Position numbers and translations under genes: made by a program. DNA of 60,652 nt, taken from the NCBI GenBank assembly GCA_039803925.1, contig JBDRZL010000011.1:1-60652 (forward strand). Reading direction: 5' to 3'. This stretch comes from a candidate division WOR-3 bacterium. GTDB lineage: Bacteria; Hydrothermota; Hydrothermia; Hydrothermales; JAJRUZ01. The notes beneath the pieces were generated by a model. The model was given only the letters and a program-made list of their open reading frames with translations. It was not told where the DNA came from and made no database searches. Positions 10,328-57,321 of this stretch are shown here, piece after piece (the stretch's first letter is position 1; every line of letters begins with the position of its first letter).

Positions 10328-11338
10328 TTATTTCTCCTTTTCTGATAAATATTCAAGTAAATCTACAACTCTTACAGAGTACCCCCATTCATTATCATAC
10401 CAGCCTGCTACTTTTACTAAGTTTTCAACAGTTTCGGTTAAGGTTGCATCAAATATACAGGAATGAGGGTTTCCTATGAAATCAGTAGAGACAAGGGGTT
10501 TATCACAGTATTCAAGATATTTTGGGAGTTTTTCTGATACTTTTTTGAAAGCCTCATTAACTTCTTCTTTTTTAACTTCTTTTTTAACTACTGCTGTGAA
10601 ATCGCAAAGGGAAACATTTGGTGTTGGAACCCTGATTGATATAGCCTTTAGTTTTCCCTTTAATTCAGGATAAACAAGTTCAATTGCTTCTGCTGCACCT
10701 GTTGATGTTGGTATTATATTTAAAGCTGCTGCTCTTGCTCTCCTTAAATCCCTATGTATCTGGTCAAGAATTCTCTGGTCATTCGTATAGGAGTGAATTG
10801 TGGTCATTTCTCCCTTTTCAATTCCAAAATTTTCGTGTATAACTTTAACCAAAAAGGAAAAACAGTTTGTTGTGCAGGAAGCATTGGATATAACAAAATG
10901 TTTTTCCGGGTCATAGAAGTGTTCATTTACACCAAGGACAATTGTAACATCCGGTTTTGTTCCTTTACCAGGTGCAGTAATTATAACTCTTTTTGCTCCT
11001 GCATCAAGGTGGAGTGCTGCTTTTGTTCTATCTGTAAAAGCTCCTGTTGATTCTACTACATAATCAACTTCAAGTTCTTTCCAGGGGAGTTTTGATGGTT
11101 CTTTTTCAGAAAAGACTTTTATTTTCTTTCCATTAATCTTAAATCCATCTTTTAGAACTTCTATTTTATCATCTGTTATTCCAAAAACAGAATCGTACTT
11201 ATAGAGGTGAGCGAGAGCCTCAGGGTCTGATAAGTCATTTATTGCAACAAATTCAAGATTTTTTCTTTTTAAACCTTCTTTTAAAACCTGTCTTCCAATT
11301 CTTCCAAAACCATTTATAGCAACTTTTACCTTTTTCAT
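10328..11338 (-). CDS. gap: Glyceraldehyde-3-phosphate dehydrogenase
   Basis: 336 residues with the Rossmann motif INGFGRIGR, an Asp in INDLSD (D35) that favours NAD over NADP, and the active-site SNASCTTNC with C155 as the nucleophile. The C-terminal WYDNEWGYS is also intact. It precedes pgk and would be cotranscribed with it. The leader carries no Shine-Dalgarno sequence; instead a T-arm-like hairpin lies 25 bases before the ATG (see that entry). No special features in the coding sequence. Confidence 0.97.
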   Translation of the reverse strand: MKKVKVAINGFGRIGRQVLKEGLKRKNLEFVAINDLSDPEALAHLYKYDSVFGITDDKIEVLKDGFKINGKKIKVFSEKEPSKLPWKELEVDYVVESTGAFTDRTKAALHLDAGAKRVIITAPGKGTKPDVTIVLGVNEHFYDPEKHFVISNASCTTNCFSFLVKVIHENFGIEKGEMTTIHSYTNDQRILDQIHRDLRRARAAALNIIPTSTGAAEAIELVYPELKGKLKAISIRVPTPNVSLCDFTAVVKKEVKKEEVNEAFKKVSEKLPKYLEYCDKPLVSTDFIGNPHSCIFDATLTETVENLVKVAGWYDNEWGYSVRVVDLLEYLSEKEK

Positions 11339-11363: not shown

Positions 11364-11380
11364 GGGGATTTGAACCCTTA
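11364..11380 (-). promoter_or_regulatory. T-arm-like leader hairpin upstream of gap
   Basis: Minus-strand sequence GGG-TTCAAAT-CCC (11377 to 11365): 3-bp stem with the 7-base loop TTCAAAT, identical to the T-loop of three tRNAs in this window. It ends 25-26 bases before the gap start. An AT-rich -10 candidate TAAAAT lies at 11395-11390, so the transcript would begin near 11383. No Shine-Dalgarno sequence lies between hairpin and ATG. Confidence 0.6.
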
Positions 11381-11447: not shown

Positions 11448-11742
11448 CTATTTTCTTAAAAAAGTCGGAGAAGGTGTCCCCTCCTCAATTTTATTTTTCC
11501 ACCTTATATGCAAAAAATCATATGTTAGCATCTTCAAATGGATAGCCTTTACATAGTTAATTGAGGGAATTTCTATTTTAACTGAATCAATTCCAACTGT
11601 AAATATGTCAAAGGAAGGAGATTCAATAGTGTTTTAAAATTTCCTCATCACTCAGAGTTGGTTCAGTTTTTTTCTCTTCATCCCAATTTTTTTTCTTTTT
11701 TATTTTTAAGGGATTTGAACCTTTAATTATTATTAGACTCAT
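11448..11742 (-). pseudogene. Small frameshifted gene remnant of unknown family, between gap and bamD
   Basis: The 455 bases between gap and bamD have no intact gene. On the minus strand an open frame from ATG at 11742 gives 39 residues ending EPTLSDEEILKHY; shifting by one base at the run of four A near that point joins it to about 60 further residues containing FDIFTVGIDSVKIEIPS and YDFLHIRWKNK, ending with TAG at 11448. The two halves look coding in codon choice and composition, so a roughly 97-residue gene broken by one inserted base is the simplest reading. I do not recognise the family. A sequencing error at the A-run is the main alternative. Confidence 0.42.
11708..11724 (-). repeat. 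Orphan copy of the T-arm-like hairpin motif
   Basis: Minus strand AAAGG-TTCAAAT-CCCTT: same 7-base loop and GG/CC stem as the gene-leader copies. Unlike them it lies inside the decayed small gene rather than directly ahead of an intact start codon. Confidence 0.55.
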
Positions 11743-17457: not shown

Positions 17458-18720
17458 TCACTTCTGCTGAGTCATTGCTTCAAGAAATTCTTCATTTGTT
17501 CTATATAACCTCATCTTCTGAATAAGAAACTCCATAGACTCAACATTACTCATTTCTGCAATTAACTTTCTTAAAATCCATACTTTGTTTAAAACAGAAT
17601 TTGGAAGTAAAAGTTCTTCCCTTCTTGTCCCGGATTTCTTTAAATCAATAGCAGGGAAAATTCTCCTTTCAGCAAGTTTTCTATCAAGGATTATTTCCAT
17701 ATTACCTGTCCCTTTGAATTCTTCGTATATAACATCATCCATTCTTGAACCTGTCTCTATCAAACAGGAAGCTATTATTGTTAAAGAACCTCCTTCTTCA
17801 ATATTTCTTGCTGCACCGAAAAATTTTCTTGGTTCTATTAAAGCAGTTGCATCAAGACCACCTGAAAGAGTTCTTCCTGAATGTGCTGCTAAAACATTAT
17901 GAGCTCTTGTTAGCCTTGTTAAAGAGTCAAGCAGTATAACTACATCCTTTTTTAACTCAACCATTCTTTTTGCCCTTTCAAGAACTATTCTTGCTACCTG
18001 TGCATGTCTATCTGCCGGTTCATCAAAAGTTGAGGAAATTACTTCTGCATCAACTTTTCTTTTCCAGTCAGTTACCTCTTCAGGTCTTTCATCAATTAAA
18101 AGGACAATTACATAGGTATCAGGGTGATTCTTCCTTATACTCTGGGCTATTTTCTGTAACATCACTGTTTTACCTGCTCTTGGGGGTGATACTATAAGTC
18201 CTCTTTGTCCATGACCTATAGGAACAAAAAGATCTATAATCCTTCTTGTTAAATCTTCTTCCTCCTCAATTTCCAGTTTAATTCTTCTTGTTGGAAAATA
18301 AGGAATAAGTTCATCAAATTCTGGTCTTGACTTTAACTCCTGGGGCGGTAAACCGTTTATAAGTTCAATTTTAACCATGGCAGGAAATTTAACAGTTCCA
18401 TCAACTGGAACCTTTATATAACCTGATACAAGGTCTCCTGTTTTTAAACCAAATCTTTTAATCTGTGACTGAGATATATAAACATCCTCTGTCCCTTGTA
18501 AATAACTGTTTTTTGGTGATCTTAAAAATCCGTAACCCTCAGGATGAATTTCAATAACACCTTCCCTAAATTCAGCTCCTTCCCTTCTTGCTGTTTCCTG
18601 AGCGATTGCAAAAATAAGTTCTTCTTTTTTTATTGATTGACTTACCTTTATACCCAGTTCCTTTGCAAGATATATAAGTTCGTTTGTTTTTTTCTGTTTT
18701 AGTTCTACTATATCTATCAT
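17458..18720 (-). CDS. rho: Transcription termination factor Rho
   Basis: 420 residues: an N-terminal helix bundle, a cold-shock-like RNA-binding domain (GVIEIHPEGYGFLR, residues 55-67), then the RecA-type ATPase with Walker A GLIVSPPRAGKT (K184), the Q-loop stretch HSGRTLSGGLDA and the R-loop. Rho ends transcripts that lack intrinsic terminators, and clear intrinsic terminators are scarce in this window. The gene has no Shine-Dalgarno site; a T-arm-like hairpin stands 22 bases upstream of the ATG. Confidence 0.97.
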   Translation of the reverse strand: MIDIVELKQKKTNELIYLAKELGIKVSQSIKKEELIFAIAQETARREGAEFREGVIEIHPEGYGFLRSPKNSYLQGTEDVYISQSQIKRFGLKTGDLVSGYIKVPVDGTVKFPAMVKIELINGLPPQELKSRPEFDELIPYFPTRRIKLEIEEEEDLTRRIIDLFVPIGHGQRGLIVSPPRAGKTVMLQKIAQSIRKNHPDTYVIVLLIDERPEEVTDWKRKVDAEVISSTFDEPADRHAQVARIVLERAKRMVELKKDVVILLDSLTRLTRAHNVLAAHSGRTLSGGLDATALIEPRKFFGAARNIEEGGSLTIIASCLIETGSRMDDVIYEEFKGTGNMEIILDRKLAERRIFPAIDLKKSGTRREELLLPNSVLNKVWILRKLIAEMSNVESMEFLIQKMRLYRTNEEFLEAMTQQK

Positions 18721-18742
18721 TTTTGAAAAAGAAAATTATAAT

Positions 18743-18753
18743 GGGATTGAACC
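18743..18753 (-). promoter_or_regulatory. T-arm-like leader hairpin upstream of rho (6-base loop variant)
   Basis: Minus strand GG-TTCAAT-CCC. The loop is one base shorter than the other copies. A -10-like TATAAA at 18768-18763 would start the message around 18756, almost at the hairpin. No ribosome site in the leader. Confidence 0.5.
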
Positions 18754-18763
18754 TATAAAAATT

Positions 18764-24871: not shown

Positions 24872-24886
24872 AGGGTTCAAATCCAT
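24872..24886 (+). promoter_or_regulatory. T-arm-like leader hairpin upstream of rpmE
   Basis: GG-TTCAAAT-CC core at 24874-24884, 21 bases before the rpmE ATG. The leader between is only A/T with single G, without a Shine-Dalgarno sequence. Confidence 0.6.
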
Positions 24887-28846: not shown

Positions 28847-29086
28847 TTAGACTATTTTTCTTGTTTTGTAATAGAGGGAAAGTTTTGCTCTTTTTGCGTA
28901 TTGTAAGGAACCCTTGGTGAATCCGCTTGATGATACGATTATTTTGTATCCCTTTTTACTTAGTTTTTTAACTTCAGTTAAAGGAAGAGGTCTTGACCAG
29001 TTTCTTACTGCTTTTAAAGGTCTTTTAGTTTTTTTTATTCTTGAAGATTTTTTTGTTACTTTTTTGCTTTTTCTTTTTATCACCAT
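28847..29086 (-). CDS. Small basic protein with a motif resembling the end of an Mrr endonuclease domain
   Basis: 79 residues. The first 28 are almost all Lys, Arg, Ser and Thr. The rest, GYKIIVSSSGFTKGSLQYAK, resembles the SGF-T/S-x-x-A-x-x-Y-A-x segment of Mrr-type restriction endonuclease domains, but the catalytic part of that domain is absent. It may be a DNA- or RNA-binding remnant or a ribosome-associated protein. It has its own near-consensus promoter and a T-arm-like leader, which argues for real, strong expression. Confidence 0.55.
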   Translation of the reverse strand: MVIKRKSKKVTKKSSRIKKTKRPLKAVRNWSRPLPLTEVKKLSKKGYKIIVSSSGFTKGSLQYAKRAKLSLYYKTRKIV

Positions 29087-29105
29087 TTTTGTTTTTATTT
29101 TTTAT

Positions 29106-29118
29106 GAGATTTGAACTC
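29106..29118 (-). promoter_or_regulatory. T-arm-like leader hairpin upstream of the small basic protein
   Basis: Minus strand GAG-TTCAAAT-CTC: the stem differs from the usual GGG/CCC by a compensated pair (A-T in place of G-C), which supports a real helix. It lies 19 bases before the ATG and about 4 bases after the predicted transcription start. No ribosome site. Confidence 0.65.
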
Positions 29119-29128
29119 TTTTTTTTAT

Positions 29129-29157
29129 ATTATATAAAATTTTTTTTAATTTGTCAA
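29129..29157 (-). promoter_or_regulatory. Near-consensus sigma-70 promoter (TTGACA-17-TATAAT)
   Basis: On the minus strand TTGACA (29157-29152), 17 bases, TATAAT (29134-29129). Start near 29122. It is the strongest promoter match found in the window and drives the small basic protein gene. Confidence 0.8.
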
Positions 29158-33593: not shown

Positions 33594-34933
33594 TTTATAA
33601 TTAAATAAATATCCATTTTTCTTATCTTACTTTCTGATTCACCTATTTTTTTTATCTCTTTAAAAAATTTTTTAAATCCCTCATTTATTTCACCAACATA
33701 TAAAAGTGTATCCGGAAGCTTCTTTTCTTTCTGCCATATTGTAAACTGGTTTTCCCTTGAATTTATGTTCAGGGAGTAAACATAAGGTTTATCTTTCATA
33801 TAAAAGGATAAAAGGGAAGCTATTTGATAGTTATTAGCTGCAAAATTTTTTATTCCATATCTTTCAGCAAACCATTTTACATCAAAGGCAAGTTCCTTCC
33901 ACCCTTTCATTCTAAATGTAGGATCTTTTTTAAATTTTATCAAAGGATAAAGGGTATGTGAATGAATGTAAAAGATTAAAATAAAAGTTATAAAAGAGAT
34001 GATGTAAAAAATTTTATTTTCTTTTAGATATTTTATGGCAATTATTAAAAGAAAAATATAGGATATACTTGGCCAGTTCGCCTCTGCTTTTGTTTTAAGT
34101 GAAGAAATCATAAAAAATAAAAAGGGAAATAAAAAGGAAAAGGTTAAAAAATTTATACCTTCCTTAAAAATACCTTTAAAACCATAAAAGTATATTAGAA
34201 TTGAAAGGGGGAAGGATAATACAAGTATAGAATCTAAAAGGTATAATAGAGTGTTCATAAATTCTATTTCTTTTTTTCCGTATCCATGATGAATTTGAAA
34301 TTTGAAACTTATAAAATCGTTCATTAAATTCCATATTATACATGGCGAAAATATTAAAAGGGATATTAAAAAGAATAAGAAAAGTTCTTTTGAAAATAAT
34401 TTTTTCTTCTGAAAGAAAAAAAGAATGATTGATGGTAATAAGAGGATTGAGACATATTTTGATAAAAGGGAGAGTCCATAGGAAATTGCTGCTAAATAAA
34501 GAAAAAGAAAATTTTTTTCTGATTTTAAAAGAAAATAAAAGGTAAGTATTATAAATAAAGCCATAGGTGTGTCAGGTGTTATTACTACTTGCCCAACTGA
34601 AAATATTAATACGAGGGAGAAAACATAGATTGATATTAAGATTTTTGTTTTATCAATTTCTGTAAATATAAGCACCAAAACCAATAAAAAAATAAGACCT
34701 AAAAAAAATGCTGGAAATCTGACACCTAATTCATTATCTCCTAAAAAAATTCTTGAAATTTTAATTAAGTATGCAACCATTGGAGGGTGGTCAAAGTAGG
34801 AGAGATCTAAATTAGAGGACCATAAAAAGTAATAGGCCTCATCCTCTGTTAGTTCTGTTTTTAAAATTATTAAAATTTTCAGAATTATTAAAATAAAAAT
34901 CTGGATTATTACATAAAATTTTTTCATAATCAA
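33590..34933 (-). CDS. GT39-type membrane glycosyltransferase (ArnT/PMT-like)
   Basis: 447 residues with about ten transmembrane helices. The N-terminal loop has the family acidic motif TEDEAYYFLWS (catalytic Asp/Glu) and a second loop DHPPMVAYLIK that matches ArnT-like enzymes. The C-terminal soluble region is short (YGIKNFAANNYQIASLLSFY). These enzymes move a sugar from a polyprenyl phosphate to lipid A or protein. It overlaps both neighbours by 4 bases, which ties it to the Omp85 protein and TrmB only by transcription. Confidence 0.82.
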   Translation of the reverse strand: MIMKKFYVIIQIFILIILKILIILKTELTEDEAYYFLWSSNLDLSYFDHPPMVAYLIKISRIFLGDNELGVRFPAFFLGLIFLLVLVLIFTEIDKTKILISIYVFSLVLIFSVGQVVITPDTPMALFIILTFYFLLKSEKNFLFLYLAAISYGLSLLSKYVSILLLPSIILFFFQKKKLFSKELFLFFLISLLIFSPCIIWNLMNDFISFKFQIHHGYGKKEIEFMNTLLYLLDSILVLSFPLSILIYFYGFKGIFKEGINFLTFSFLFPFLFFMISSLKTKAEANWPSISYIFLLIIAIKYLKENKIFYIISFITFILIFYIHSHTLYPLIKFKKDPTFRMKGWKELAFDVKWFAERYGIKNFAANNYQIASLLSFYMKDKPYVYSLNINSRENQFTIWQKEKKLPDTLLYVGEINEGFKKFFKEIKKIGESESKIRKMDIYLIIK

Positions 34934-35823
34934 TTTTGAGGTTTTAAAAAAAATACATTTTTTAAATTATCAAGAATCCATTCAGTAAAAATCATTTTCT
35001 CCTTGAATAAAGGTTTTAATAAAATTTTATCCTTTTTCTCCATAAGGAAAAATAGAAACTGCTCAAAATTTTCTTCCTTTGAAAAGAATTCAAAAATCTT
35101 TGATTTATCAGAGGTAAATATTCTTTTTAATTTAAAAATGCGCTCTTTTTCTTTTCTTTCATAATTATTTTCAAAATTTTCTTTTTCTAAAATTAAGTGG
35201 TCAAATTTATTTATAATTTTAATTTTCTTTTCAAGGTCAGGTTTTTTATCTGAAACTTTTTTAAGGGATAAAAAATAAAATTTTTTACCTATTTTTTTCC
35301 ATTTCCTTGCATATTTCGTATCCGTAGCCTTTTCAAGAAAAAAATCTTCAAATTCATCTTCAATAAAATATCCTTTCCTTAAAAATTTTTCCTTCATTTC
35401 TTCATAAAAAAATTTTTCGTCTGTTATAGAGTAGAACTTACCTTCTTCCTTAAGTGAATACCATATAATTTCAGGAAAATCATTCTCATAAATTCTCCTT
35501 TCTTTATGTTTTTCTTTTTTGAAAGTAAAAGGAAATAGCATAAATATTTTTTCAAAAAGAAAATTTGGGAAAACGTATTTTAATAAAAATTTTGCATCAC
35601 CATAAAATAAAAATATATTGGGATGATAGGAAAGTTTTTTAAGGAGAGTTTTTATCATTTTTTTTGAAATTTCAATTCCAACTAAAGGTGATAAAGGGTC
35701 AAGGGCAAAAAGATGGATTAAAAAATCTCCTTTACCAAAGCCAATTTCTAAAAATCTTACTGGTTTTGGTCCAAAAAAATTTTTATTTAAGGGAAGTTTT
35801 TCATCCTGCCAGAAAACTATCAT
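34930..35823 (-). CDS. trmB: tRNA (guanine-N7-)-methyltransferase with C-terminal extension
   Basis: 297 residues. The AdoMet site is LEIGFGKGDFL, followed by VGIEISKKM, as in TrmB, which makes m7G46 in tRNA. The motif usually written PWPKxRH is here MLFPFTFKKEKHKERR, changed at the two prolines/tryptophan but keeping the basic run. A Lys/Glu-rich extension of about 100 residues follows, as in TrmB of hot-water bacteria such as Aquifex. The start is 16 bases from the divergent flippase-like gene. Confidence 0.78.
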   Translation of the reverse strand: MIVFWQDEKLPLNKNFFGPKPVRFLEIGFGKGDFLIHLFALDPLSPLVGIEISKKMIKTLLKKLSYHPNIFLFYGDAKFLLKYVFPNFLFEKIFMLFPFTFKKEKHKERRIYENDFPEIIWYSLKEEGKFYSITDEKFFYEEMKEKFLRKGYFIEDEFEDFFLEKATDTKYARKWKKIGKKFYFLSLKKVSDKKPDLEKKIKIINKFDHLILEKENFENNYERKEKERIFKLKRIFTSDKSKIFEFFSKEENFEQFLFFLMEKKDKILLKPLFKEKMIFTEWILDNLKNVFFLKPQN

Positions 35824-35825
35824 AG

Positions 35826-35833
35826 AATATAAT
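35826..35833. promoter_or_regulatory. Interlocked divergent -10 boxes (trmB / flippase-like gene)
   Basis: Within the 16-base gap the plus strand has TATAAT (35828-35833), 6 bases from its ATG, and the minus strand has TATATT (35831-35826), 2 bases from its ATG. Neither gene has a ribosome site. Confidence 0.5.
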
Positions 35834-35839
35834 TTTAAA

Positions 35840-36826
35840 ATGAAAATTGTTGAAAGGGAAAAAGTTAAAAAAGGAATAAGATTATTATTTTTAATTTTTT
35901 TTATTTCTTTTATTTTTGTTTTTTTTCATTCTTTTTCTAAACTGGATATTCAATATTTTAAAAACATAAAAATTTTCTTTTTGTTTTTATTAATTTTATC
36001 TTCCCTTTTTTATATAATTTTTGCTGGTTTAAGTATAAGTTTTGCCTCCTTTTCCTTTAATAAAAAAGTTAATCCTTCATTTTCTATTGAGATTCTTCTT
36101 TCAGGATATTTTCTTGCTTCAATAACACCATTTGGTTCAGGAGGTCTTCCCTATCAACTTTTTTTACTTTCAAGAAAAAAATTATCTCTCGGTGAAGGTA
36201 CTTTTATTTTATATATTTTTGCATTTTTTAAATATTTATTTTTATTTAGCTCTTTAGTTTTAAACTTAAAATTTTTAACAATTAATAAGAATGCTTATAT
36301 AAGAATGATTTTTTCTTATATAATTTTACTTATAATTTTGATGTTTATTATTCTTTTATTTCTTTTTATTTTTCCAGAAGAAAAACTAAAATTCTTTCCC
36401 CTTAAATTTGAAGGGAATTTTAAAAAAATACTTTTTTTCCTTTTTAATGAACTTTTCAATTTTAAAAGGGTTTTCATTGTATTTTTGAAAAATCCTAATT
36501 ATTTCTTATTATCCCTTTTATTTGCCTTTAAAAGTTTTTTAAGTCTTGTTTTAATTATACCTTTAATTTTTTTTGCTCTTGGAGTAAAAATAGAATTTTT
36601 TAAAATTTTTTTAGTTTCATCTTTTATATATGTGCTTTTACTTTTTTCTCCTTCACCTGGTGGAATTGGTTATGCTGAAATAATATCTTTCTTTTTAATC
36701 TCAAAAAATCTGGAAAGTTCTCTTATTCCCCTGATTGTGTTTTTGTGGAGATTTTTTTCTTTTTACATTTTTGCATTTTCAGGTGCTTTTTTTATATTAT
36801 GGAGAATATCAAAATGGAAACTTTAA
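35840..36826 (+). CDS. Lysylphosphatidylglycerol-synthase-TM/flippase-like membrane protein (UPF0104)
   Basis: 328 residues with about eight transmembrane helices. Family signatures LASITPFGSGGLPYQLFLLS and the late LLFSPSPGGIGYAE are clear. Proteins with this membrane domain alone are thought to flip or handle lipids. It overlaps plsY by 13 bases, so the two are likely a lipid-related pair. The C-terminal synthase domain of MprF is absent. Confidence 0.85.
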   Translation: MKIVEREKVKKGIRLLFLIFFISFIFVFFHSFSKLDIQYFKNIKIFFLFLLILSSLFYIIFAGLSISFASFSFNKKVNPSFSIEILLSGYFLASITPFGSGGLPYQLFLLSRKKLSLGEGTFILYIFAFFKYLFLFSSLVLNLKFLTINKNAYIRMIFSYIILLIILMFIILLFLFIFPEEKLKFFPLKFEGNFKKILFFLFNELFNFKRVFIVFLKNPNYFLLSLLFAFKSFLSLVLIIPLIFFALGVKIEFFKIFLVSSFIYVLLLFSPSPGGIGYAEIISFFLISKNLESSLIPLIVFLWRFFSFYIFAFSGAFFILWRISKWKL

Positions 36827-40956: not shown

Positions 40957-41028
40957 TGGAGCCGGGGAGATTTGAACTCCCGACCCCCTGGTTGCAAACC
41001 AGGTGCTCTCCCACTGAGCTACGGCCCC
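40957..41028 (-). tRNA. tRNA-Ala (anticodon TGC)
   Basis: Minus-strand cloverleaf with anticodon stem CCTGG/CCAGG, loop TTTGCAA, T-arm GGGAG-TTCAAAT-CTCCC and discriminator A. The acceptor stem carries the G3-U70 pair that marks alanine tRNAs. CCA is not encoded. Confidence 0.97.
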
Positions 41029-43185: not shown

Positions 43186-43200
43186 AAGGTTCAAATCCAG
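43186..43200 (+). promoter_or_regulatory. T-arm-like leader hairpin upstream of sco1
   Basis: GG-TTCAAAT-CC core at 43188-43198, 18 bases before the ATG; the rest of the leader is A/T-rich with no Shine-Dalgarno sequence. Confidence 0.6.
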
Positions 43201-43216
43201 AATTAAATTTCATAAA

Positions 43217-43966
43217 ATGTTTAAATTTATCCTGTTTTTTTTAATAATAAATGAAACCCCTGAAGTTGGGGTAGTTGAAAAAATCGGTTCTTTTTTGCCA
43301 GGAGATATTTATTTTGTTAATTCAGAGGGAAAGGAGTTCGCTCTAAAAGATATTTCTTTAAATAAAAAACCTTTTGTTTTTGTTCCTGTTTTTTATAGTT
43401 GTAAAATGGTATGTCCAATGATGCTTAATGAAATTTTTAATAATCTGGAAAAGATTAATTCAAAATTAGGTAAGGATTTTTATATTATTGTTTTCAGTTT
43501 TGATCTTAAAGATGATGTGAATAAGGCAAAAGAACTTAAAAAGGATTATTTTGCCTCTTTAAATAAAGATTTTGATAAAGAGGCACTCAATTTTACAATC
43601 TTGAAAGACTCTTTAAATCTATACAGGTTAACCAGTTCCCTTGGTTTTTATTTTAAAAGAGAAGGAGAAATGTTCATTCACCCTTCTACATATATTTTTA
43701 TTTCGCCTGATTTAAAGATAGTAAGGTACATATATGGTCCTGAACTTTTACCCCTTGATATGGAAATGGCACTAAATGAAGCATCAGAAGGTAAAATTGG
43801 AGGAATCAGGGTTAAAGCTACCAGGTTCTGTTTTACCTATGATCCAAAAGGTAGAAAGTATGTTTTTAACTTTATCAAAGTTTTTATGACTTTTTCTATG
43901 ATTTTTGTTATTTCTTTTGCCTTATTTTTAACTTTATGGATTAAAAAAAGAAAAAGGGAGGATTAA
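43217..43966 (+). CDS. SCO1/SenC copper chaperone
   Basis: 249 residues: N-terminal hydrophobic anchor, thioredoxin fold with the copper motif C62-x3-C66 (FYSCKMVCPMM) and the distal His in FIHPSTYIF, and a C-terminal transmembrane helix (about 215-240). It delivers copper to the CuA site of oxidase subunit II, encoded four genes downstream. The stop directly abuts the subunit I start. The extra C-terminal helix is less usual for SCO proteins, which normally have only an N-terminal one. Confidence 0.93.
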   Translation: MFKFILFFLIINETPEVGVVEKIGSFLPGDIYFVNSEGKEFALKDISLNKKPFVFVPVFYSCKMVCPMMLNEIFNNLEKINSKLGKDFYIIVFSFDLKDDVNKAKELKKDYFASLNKDFDKEALNFTILKDSLNLYRLTSSLGFYFKREGEMFIHPSTYIFISPDLKIVRYIYGPELLPLDMEMALNEASEGKIGGIRVKATRFCFTYDPKGRKYVFNFIKVFMTFSMIFVISFALFLTLWIKKRKRED

Positions 43967-55404: not shown

Positions 55405-56097
55405 ATGAACTTAAATTCAGATTTAAATAAAAATTTAATGACAATAGGTGAGGTAATAGAGTATTTAAAAAAGTATTTTGATAAAGTTTCGGAGAGTAAG
55501 TTGAGGTATTATGAAAAAGAGGGTCTTATTCTTCCGAAGAGAACAAAGGGGGGGCACAGGTTATACTGTTTAGAAAGTGTTAAGATTTTGAGGCTTATTT
55601 TGGAGATGAGGGAGAAATACAGAATGAGTCTTCCTGAGGTTAAGTCTTTTCTTTCCCGTATTAAGAAGGATAAATCTTTGCTTTTACTTTTTGAAGAGAT
55701 AGTTAAATATTCTGATCTAACTTTTGAAAGAGTTGACCTTTCTGAGCTTGAAAGGAAATATAAATTTTCAAAGGATCATATTAAGAAATTGGAAAAAATT
55801 GGTTTAATAGTTAAGTGTCCTAAGACTGGAAAATATTACGGAGAATCTTTGAAGTTGATAGATATTTTGAATTATTTAGCAAATAGTGGTGTAGATCTTG
55901 AAAAAATTTACAAAATAATTGAAAAAGTTAAAGAAATCTCAGAAATTGAATCTCAAATTTTTAGTGTTGTTAAAGAGAATGGGATAAAACTTTTTGAAGT
56001 AAAGGAAAAAATTTCCCGTTTAAAAGATATACTTTTTGTTTTATATTTAAAGAAATTTTTACTTGATAAGGGTTCAAATCCTTTAAAAAAGGAGTAA
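55405..56097 (+). CDS. MerR-like regulator with two DNA-binding helices sets
   Basis: 230 residues. Residues 12-80 are a MerR winged helix (TIGEVIEYL, SKLRYYEKEGLILPKRTKGGHRLY, then a capping helix), and residues 105-160 look like a second, degenerate MerR-type unit (ERKYKFSKDHIKKLEKIGLIV). There are no Cys or other obvious effector-binding motifs in the C-terminal part. It heads a group with a CDGSH, a thioredoxin-like and a DoxX gene, so it may sense redox state, but this is inferred. Its last codons contain a copy of the T-arm-like motif. Confidence 0.82.
   Translation: MNLNSDLNKNLMTIGEVIEYLKKYFDKVSESKLRYYEKEGLILPKRTKGGHRLYCLESVKILRLILEMREKYRMSLPEVKSFLSRIKKDKSLLLLFEEIVKYSDLTFERVDLSELERKYKFSKDHIKKLEKIGLIVKCPKTGKYYGESLKLIDILNYLANSGVDLEKIYKIIEKVKEISEIESQIFSVVKENGIKLFEVKEKISRLKDILFVLYLKKFLLDKGSNPLKKE
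56068..56084 (+). promoter_or_regulatory. T-arm-like leader hairpin upstream of the CDGSH gene
   Basis: AAGGG-TTCAAAT-CCTTT: five-pair stem with one G-T pair, 7-base loop. It overlaps the last codons of the MerR-like gene and lies 21 bases before the next ATG; AAAAGGAG follows as a ribosome site. Confidence 0.6.
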
Positions 56098-56105
56098 AGA
56101 GAATT

Positions 56106-56321
56106 ATGAAAATAAATTCAAAGAAAAATGGTCCCAATGTTTTGATGTTTGATAAAGCGAAGAAAATAATAATTAAAAAAGGTGATAGTGTAGAGGAAAA
56201 GGAATTGCAGGTTATAGCTTTTTGCAGATGTGGTCACAGCAAAAATATGCCCTTCTGTGACGGAACACACAAGGAGGTAAATTTTAATGCTGATGAAGCT
56301 GAAGTTGAGATACAGGAATGA
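56106..56321 (+). CDS. CDGSH iron-sulfur domain protein
   Basis: 71 residues with C-x-C-x-x-x-x-K-x-x-P-F-C-D-G-x-H (FCRCGHSKNMPFCDGTHKE). The three Cys and one His bind a [2Fe-2S] cluster that is redox-active. Such proteins act in iron, redox or electron-transfer control. It overlaps the next gene by 4 bases. Confidence 0.92.
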   Translation: MKINSKKNGPNVLMFDKAKKIIIKKGDSVEEKELQVIAFCRCGHSKNMPFCDGTHKEVNFNADEAEVEIQE

Positions 56322-56893: not shown

Positions 56894-56908
56894 GGGTTCA
56901 AATCCCTT
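56892..56908 (+). promoter_or_regulatory. T-arm-like leader hairpin upstream of doxX, perfect 5-bp stem
   Basis: AAGGG-TTCAAAT-CCCTT: five perfect pairs and the 7-base loop, the clearest copy. It begins at the stop codon of the thioredoxin-like gene; AAAAAAGGAGG follows 20 bases before the ATG. Confidence 0.7.
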
Positions 56909-56928: not shown

Positions 56929-57321
56929 ATGGAAATAGCCTTTTTAATAGGCAGAATTCTTTTTGGTTTATTCCATATTTTATTTGGTTTAAATCATTTT
57001 ACTAAACTTTCAGCAATGGCTGCTTATGCTGGTTCAAAAGGTGTTCCTTTTCCAGTTGTTGCTGTTTTATTCACTGGTTTTTTGCTTTTGATTGGTGGTC
57101 TTTTTATACTTTTGGGAATTTATCCAAAGATTGGAATTTTAGCTCTTGTTATATTTTATATTCCAGTGACTTTAATGATGCATAATTTCTGGGCTGTAAC
57201 TGATCCTATGGCAAAAACGATGGATATGATAAGTTTCTTTAAAAATATGATTATATTGGGTTCCAGTTTAATGTTTTTAATGATACCTGAGCCATGGAAA
57301 TTTTCAATTTTTAAATTTTAG
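56929..57321 (+). CDS. DoxX-family membrane protein
   Basis: 130 residues, four transmembrane helices. GRILFGLFHILFGLNHFTK and the last parts LVIFYIPVTLMMHNFW and MDMISFFKNMIILGSSLM match the DoxX family (related to thiosulfate:quinone oxidoreductase subunits). Function is uncertain in bacteria; a membrane redox link is possible given the operon. A strong ribosome site is present. Confidence 0.88.
   Translation: MEIAFLIGRILFGLFHILFGLNHFTKLSAMAAYAGSKGVPFPVVAVLFTGFLLLIGGLFILLGIYPKIGILALVIFYIPVTLMMHNFWAVTDPMAKTMDMISFFKNMIILGSSLMFLMIPEPWKFSIFKF

Follow-up and report, generated by a model that had tools for sequence, protein, structure and literature searches.

A 13-nucleotide hairpin built like the T-arm of tRNA is found at a nearly constant distance upstream of the start codon in about a tenth of the genes of a candidate division WOR-3 bacterium, and it is confined to one family. 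This element (as RNA, GGGUUCAAAUCCC) is probably, though with considerable room for doubt, a cis-acting signal of the translation-initiation region, in which a reader of the T-loop would promote or tune initiation. The window is the whole stretch of DNA under analysis, 60,652 nucleotides, and corresponds to contig C11 of the source genome, G000, a 1.84-Mb assembly that is 96% complete; 1.22 Mb of it were analysed, with a GC content of 0.30. G000 to G003 are four genomes of one family, and G004 belongs to the sister family in the same order.

The copy singled out in the preliminary description lies on the minus strand, in a locus composed of the following parts:
29152..29157, minus strand: -35 box TTGACA, part of a 12/12 promoter match
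29129..29134, minus strand: -10 box TATAAT, 10 nt upstream of the hairpin
29106..29118, minus strand: T-arm-like hairpin GAG-TTCAAAT-CTC, whose ortholog in G003 has a GGG/CCC stem
29087..29105, minus strand: A/T-rich spacer of 19 nt from the hairpin to the start codon, without SD
28847..29086, minus strand: gene for a Lys-rich basic protein of 79 amino acids (P0001), with its ATG at 29086

The consensus promoter reported there (TTGACA-17-TATAAT) does score 12/12 and is the sole such match in the region. The A/T-rich spacer was correctly described as devoid of a ribosome site, no SD-like sequence, defined as one complementary to the 3′ end of the 16S rRNA at 5-10 nt from the start, being found at 29087-29105. 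The arrangement given as about 7 bases to the likely start and then GAG needs correction, as the real gap between the -10 box and the hairpin is 10 bases (ATAAAAAAAA). The hairpin may well lie within a few nucleotides of the transcript 5′ end here, some 3 nt into the mRNA. The likeness to a T-arm claimed for 29106-29118 is exact: the 13-mer is letter-for-letter the T-arm (40967-40979) of the window's own tRNA-Ala gene (40957-41028), and the T-loop constraints are shared genome-wide. GNGTTCRANTCNC occurs five times in the window against 0.06 expected, and two of the five are tRNA genes. A tRNA gene (RF00005) at 29106 itself was rejected: ARAGORN and Rfam give four tRNA genes in the window, none of them there. 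The P0001 protein has no significant Pfam or PDB match; its homologs are found within the same family, in G001 (97% identity) and G003 (64%), and it is absent from all 27 genomes examined outside the family. It is laid out as a variable Lys-rich N-terminal tail followed by a conserved C-terminal part (KAVRNW.RP.PLTEVKKL..KG.K.I.SSSGFT.GS..YAKR).

The hairpin before P0001 is one of roughly a hundred copies in the genome. Under a slightly relaxed definition, the element is present in 102 of the 1126 genes (9.1%) contained in the 1.22 Mb of G000, in 38 of 372 genes of G002 and in 83 of 700 genes of G003. Other copies in the window are:
11365..11377, minus strand: GGGTTCAAATCCC, before the GAPDH gene (10328-11338); G003 keeps GGG-TTCTATT-CCC
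18742..18754, minus strand: AGGTTCAATCCCA, with the outer pair not Watson-Crick, before rho (17458-18720); AGG...CCT in G003
24873..24885, plus strand: GGGTTCAAATCCA, before the gene for ribosomal protein L31 (24906-25157); AGG...CCT in G003
43187..43199, plus strand: AGGTTCAAATCCA, before a SCO1/redoxin-like gene (43217-43966)
56070..56082, plus strand: GGGTTCAAATCCT, before a CDGSH-type gene (56106-56321), overlapping the end of the upstream ORF and followed by an SD
56894..56906, plus strand: GGGTTCAAATCCC, right after an upstream stop codon and before a DoxX-like gene (56929-57321), with an SD

An additional element on the minus strand at 11710-11722 (AGGTTCAAATCCC) is not followed by a called gene at the usual distance; the first ATG after it lies 28 nt further on and begins no more than a very short frame. 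On contig C5 of G000, at about 34635-36180 (L072:14635-16180), four T-arm-like copies are found in 1.6 kb, two of them preceding near-identical short ORFs that begin MKFLRCERGATAVE; the cluster suggests that pilin-like genes were duplicated in tandem together with their leaders.

The copies are oriented and placed in a way that controls do not reproduce. GGTTCRANNCC within 70 nt before the start was found in sense orientation in 66 of 1057 cases in G000, against 8 in antisense and 0 for the reversed motif. Applied at the right place, the detector recognised 87 of 1057 first-ATG leaders, compared with 5 when reversed, 9 when reverse-complemented and 1 when shifted 40 nt upstream; since the control counts are so low, few copies can be due to chance. 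Among all NNN-TTCRANY-NNN sequences with a perfect 3-bp stem, RGG...CCY dominates the G/C-containing stems, and most non-tRNA RGG...CCY copies sit just before ATG codons.

The element consists of a 3-bp stem with closing pair G53-C61 and a 7-nt loop of the tRNA T type (U54, U/C55, C56, N57, A58). Among hairpins of any loop sequence in the right place, loops of seven are over-represented, with 82 cases where other lengths have 25-37, and 69 of 110 such hairpins carry both U54 and A58. In the 66 T-loop copies with G53-C61, position 55 is U in 60 and C in 5, position 56 is C in 58, position 57 is A in 48, U in 9, G in 8 and C in 1, position 59 is free, and position 60 is mostly a pyrimidine. At the sequence level, the hairpin thus has what defines a tRNA-type T-loop: seven nucleotides, U54-A58, C56 and G53-C61. 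The relaxed position 57 would fit a T-loop that need not pack against a D-loop. In tRNA, C56 pairs with G19; its near-invariance here suggests contact with a partner rather than a demand of the fold alone.

Pairing of the stem is supported by copies picked by TTCRA alone, with no stem condition (n = 207). The outer pair is Watson-Crick in 115 of them against 65.7±6.1 in shuffles, a signal that stems from G000 and G003, G002 (33 copies) not being above shuffles (12 vs 10.9); all three pairs are formed in 94 of 207, compared with 167 of 5670 coding-sequence controls. A longer stem was considered and discarded: pairs 50-64 (88 vs 77.8±5.9, slightly positive in G003 only) and 49-65 (73 vs 73.2±6.4) show little or no signal, so that the stem is limited to three pairs. 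The isolated hairpin is barely stable, from -0.1 kcal/mol with GAG/CTC to -2.2 with GGG/CCC, and this marginal stability implies that the T-loop fold, a partner, or both are needed for it to form in the mRNA. The spacer just 3′ of the hairpin is often UUUAAAA-like in G003 and G000 leaders, TAAAA and TTAAA being among the commonest 5-mers in both genomes; this stretch may be a second component of the signal or an A/U box of the S1 type.

The element is kept by orthologous genes. In G003 it was retained in 28 of 30 element genes (those whose G003 ortholog aligned at the N-terminus), while it appears in only 3 of 275 genes that lack it in G000, one of these exceptions being an upstream tRNA gene; in G002 the figures are 20 of 26 and 1 of 201. 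The flanking leader has drifted to background identity (46-49%) between orthologs, with the element retained. The identity of the fixed columns is partly so by construction, as copies were recognised by those columns; the contrast of 28/30 with 3/275 is not. Compensatory changes of the outer pair were found in seven ortholog pairs. At the locus of P0001, the leader in G003, a genome of another genus, reads GGG-TCCGAAT-CCC, 21 nt before the ATG and with an SD present, so that between the two genomes the middle pair of the stem changes from A-U to G-C and the G003 loop has C55. The earlier argument that an A-T pair in place of G-C in the middle of the stem speaks for base pairing is strengthened by this ortholog, and the hairpin, whose absence from orthologous leaders had been set as the refutation of the proposal, is present in two relatives.

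In the genomes counted, comparable copy numbers are confined to the family. GGTTCRAAYCC is counted 103, 105, 60 and 129 times in the four family genomes and about 13-35 times in others. The more specific pattern, in which RGGTTCRANYCCY precedes an ATG by 17-23 nt, has 74, 81, 37 and 105 matches in the four family genomes and 5 in the sister family (G004). The rest of the 147 phylum genomes have 0-16 matches each, and a set of 40 genomes spread over varied taxonomy, some of them shared with the phylum set, has 0-12. A comparable copy number was thus not found in 143 other phylum genomes or in the 40 varied-taxonomy genomes, and most of the listed non-family matches read as tRNA 3′ ends. The highest number outside the family, 16 hairpin-plus-ATG matches, belongs to G066, of another family in the same phylum; these may be tRNAs or a small independent set.

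With regard to position, the element is anchored to the start codon and not to the promoter. In copies with a promoter-like site (at least 10/12 match), the distance from the hairpin to the start has a median of 19-21 nt and a standard deviation of 2-3, whereas the distance from the -10 box to the hairpin ranges from 3 to 79 nt with a standard deviation of 15-19. As promoters were sought only upstream of the hairpin, these data alone do not exclude transcription starts on its downstream side. With all leaders pooled, hairpin positions show a sharp peak 15-25 nt before the ATG in three genomes. Moreover, 46 of the 102 G000 copies overlap, or lie at most 30 nt after, an upstream ORF on the same strand, and because they stand at or just after the ends of these ORFs they are most likely inside transcripts. 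The placement of the hairpin at the very 5′ end of an mRNA, as put forward in the preliminary description, may be valid at the P0001 locus and is not supported as a rule: spacing is fixed to the AUG, close to half of the G000 copies trail or overlap another ORF, and even the G003 ortholog of P0001 carries its hairpin 17 nt, not 10, from the -10 box.

The missing SD, in turn, is not a property of the element. An SD of at least 4 nt is present in 34% of element genes versus 40% of the others (p = 0.29), and about 60% of G000 genes have no 4-nt SD match. When an SD is present, the hairpin spacing is just 1-2 nt longer (G000 and G003). A simple replacement of the SD was discarded, the SD being equally frequent with and without the element.

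The genes that carry the element belong to no single pathway; many are housekeeping genes, and pilus, catabolic and lipid genes are included. Translation is represented by EF-Tu, IF-3, EF-P, ribosome recycling factor (RRF), S12, S15, S20 and L31, together with L32 and L34, recognised by eye from their N-termini; metabolism by GAPDH, pyruvate phosphate dikinase (PPDK), fructose-6-phosphate aldolase, SdhA and glutamine synthetase. Rho, DnaN, PstS, thiolases, acyl-CoA dehydrogenases, LpxD, HutU, PilC and PilM are further members. A scan with GAPDH gave best matches of no more than about 60% identity, one of them from a WOR-3 bacterium. Element genes evolve slowly, with a median identity of 77.8% to G003 (65.8% for other genes, p = 4e-4) and of 80.1% to G002 (68.8% for others, p = 2e-4), which is only an indirect sign of high expression.

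The region about 33-21 nt upstream of the AUG is where the mRNA leaves the 30S platform. In the reading that we favour, the hairpin would fold like a tRNA T-loop in this region and, with the AUG in the P site, would sit just outside the mRNA exit side of the 30S subunit. A T-loop-recognising partner would bind it and promote (or tune) initiation at that AUG, alongside or instead of the SD. The likeliest partner would be the 30S platform or an initiation factor, and next a dedicated T-arm-reading protein; in tRNA, the T-loop forms part of the elbow, a surface commonly recognised by the proteins and RNAs of the translation machinery (PMC4810234). Action at the RNA level on initiation, a positive net effect and a ribosomal partner are all things that we infer. 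A repressor site would look identical in sequence, which counts against the positive-initiation reading. Several candidates were discarded: a duplication of TruB (one TruB in every genome examined), a loss of ribosomal protein S1 (S1-like proteins are present in G000-G003), TrmFO as the specific partner (present in G001-G003 and outside the family), and P0001 itself, which is not found in G002 although G002 has the element. For TrmFO (m5U54), G000 yields only a weak MnmG-like match (G000:C3:28272-28634), a shortfall due to loss or to an assembly gap.

Among the alternatives, the one that survives best, although we consider it rather unlikely, is a post-transcriptional regulon in which a family-specific, CsrA-like protein reads the T-loop and represses or activates about 10% of the genes. 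In its favour, a single hairpin, compact and conserved, is found close to many start codons and adjacent to the SD or the spacer; the near-invariant C56 and U54/A58 suggest a specific reader, and restriction to one family is as expected if a lineage had acquired a regulator. The absence of a coherent pathway and the single-copy state of TruB inside and outside the family argue against it, and a constitutive signal would better explain why the hairpin is spread so widely over core translation and metabolic genes.

Modification of the mRNA is improbable as the function of the element. Here the leader would be marked by TruB, through pseudouridine at U55, and by TrmFO, through m5U at U54. A 17-mer T-arm with GUUYRANYC suffices as a substrate of TruB (PMC7912444), and the P0001 hairpin and most copies match this consensus; since TruB is present throughout the genomes examined, some copies are likely to be modified. 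However, 10 of 66 copies have a pyrimidine at position 57, and 5 of 66 have C in place of U55. Orthologs retain these variants, TTCTAAT being shared by two species and TCC loops by two genera; among them is the G003 ortholog of P0001, whose C55 cannot become pseudouridine. As pyrimidine-57 and C55 copies are conserved, modification can hardly be the shared function; moreover, TruB is found in every genome examined and the element is not.

A slightly poorer prospect still is a 5′-terminal hairpin that shields the mRNA from 5′-end-dependent decay. In many cases a promoter-like -10 box does stand 5-10 nt ahead of the hairpin, and the gap between the two is never below 3 nt, but the looseness of this distance beside the tight one to the AUG and the operon-internal copies both speak against a terminal role; in addition, a generic protective hairpin needs no exact T-loop, and the stability of this one is low. 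It is very improbable that the element is a transcription-factor operator in double-stranded DNA, with half-sites that happen to give a near-palindrome. The stem arms do form an inverted repeat, and a palindromic site would also give correlated ends; nevertheless, the loop is asymmetric, oriented with the gene (66 sense, 8 antisense) and matches the tRNA T-loop position by position, and the element is AUG-anchored, at widely varying distances from promoter-like sites and also inside operons. Chance, or remnants of tRNA genes or of tRNA-targeted integrations, to which the identity of the 13-mer with the tRNA-Ala T-arm of the same window might point, can practically be dismissed: there is no acceptor, D or anticodon arm, the flanks are unrelated, and this reading is already refuted by the near-zero controls, the covariation and the conservation in orthologs.

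Returning to the initiation signal, bacteria are known to select start sites by SD pairing, by S1-bound A/U-rich leaders and in leaderless mRNAs, and start-codon choice without an SD is still an open question. In its boldest form, put forward only tentatively from the sequence data, our proposal is that a T-arm mimic docked by the ribosome or an initiation factor outside the exit channel could be a mode of start-site selection invented in one family. If true, tRNA mimicry would serve as a general gene signal, beyond the single-operon feedback device. It is important to note that the element has only 13 nt, a known 3D analogue, a fixed spacing before about 10% of the starts and conservation between genera; its small size and well-understood fold make the hypothesis readily testable.

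As regards known systems, no such element has been described in the literature searched (open-licence papers only), and in the window no Rfam leader family scores above its gathering cut-off, only tRNAs being matched. With the tRNA T-arm and the minimal TruB substrate GUUYRANYC, the element has in common G53-C61, U54...A58, C56, a 7-nt loop and a free position 59; it differs in having a stem of only 3 bp and no other arm, in allowing a pyrimidine at 57 or C55, and in being placed in mRNA leaders, with a fixed spacing to the start codon. The TAACTGA start-proximal repeats of marine Beggiatoaceae, tandem heptamers near the start codon that overlap the expected SD position (PMC4679880), share with it lineage restriction, orientation, proximity to the start codon and the lack of a single pathway. 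Unlike them, the element is a single structured T-loop hairpin 20 nt upstream that coexists with the SD, and the printed element leaders hold one such hairpin and no TAACTGA heptamer arrays. CsrA/RsmA hairpins are likewise short, near the ribosome-binding site of many genes and possibly comparable in having a protein reader. CsrA sites present a GGA loop motif and in most cases overlap the SD, whereas the element has a UUCRANY loop and lies upstream of the SD; the tabulated element loops hold no GGA. The leader of E. coli thrS, the operators of ribosomal proteins and the T-box leaders are gene-specific feedback devices, mostly larger, that resemble the element in that a leader imitates or reads RNA of the translation machinery. 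If the partner proved to be a classical regulator protein, categorical newness would not hold; as it stands, the element lacks the defining features examined for the SD, Csr sites, tRNA genes and Rfam leaders and is for this reason regarded as categorically new, being, in comparison with thrS, the ribosomal protein operators and the T-box, minimal in size and in the service of about 10% of the genes.
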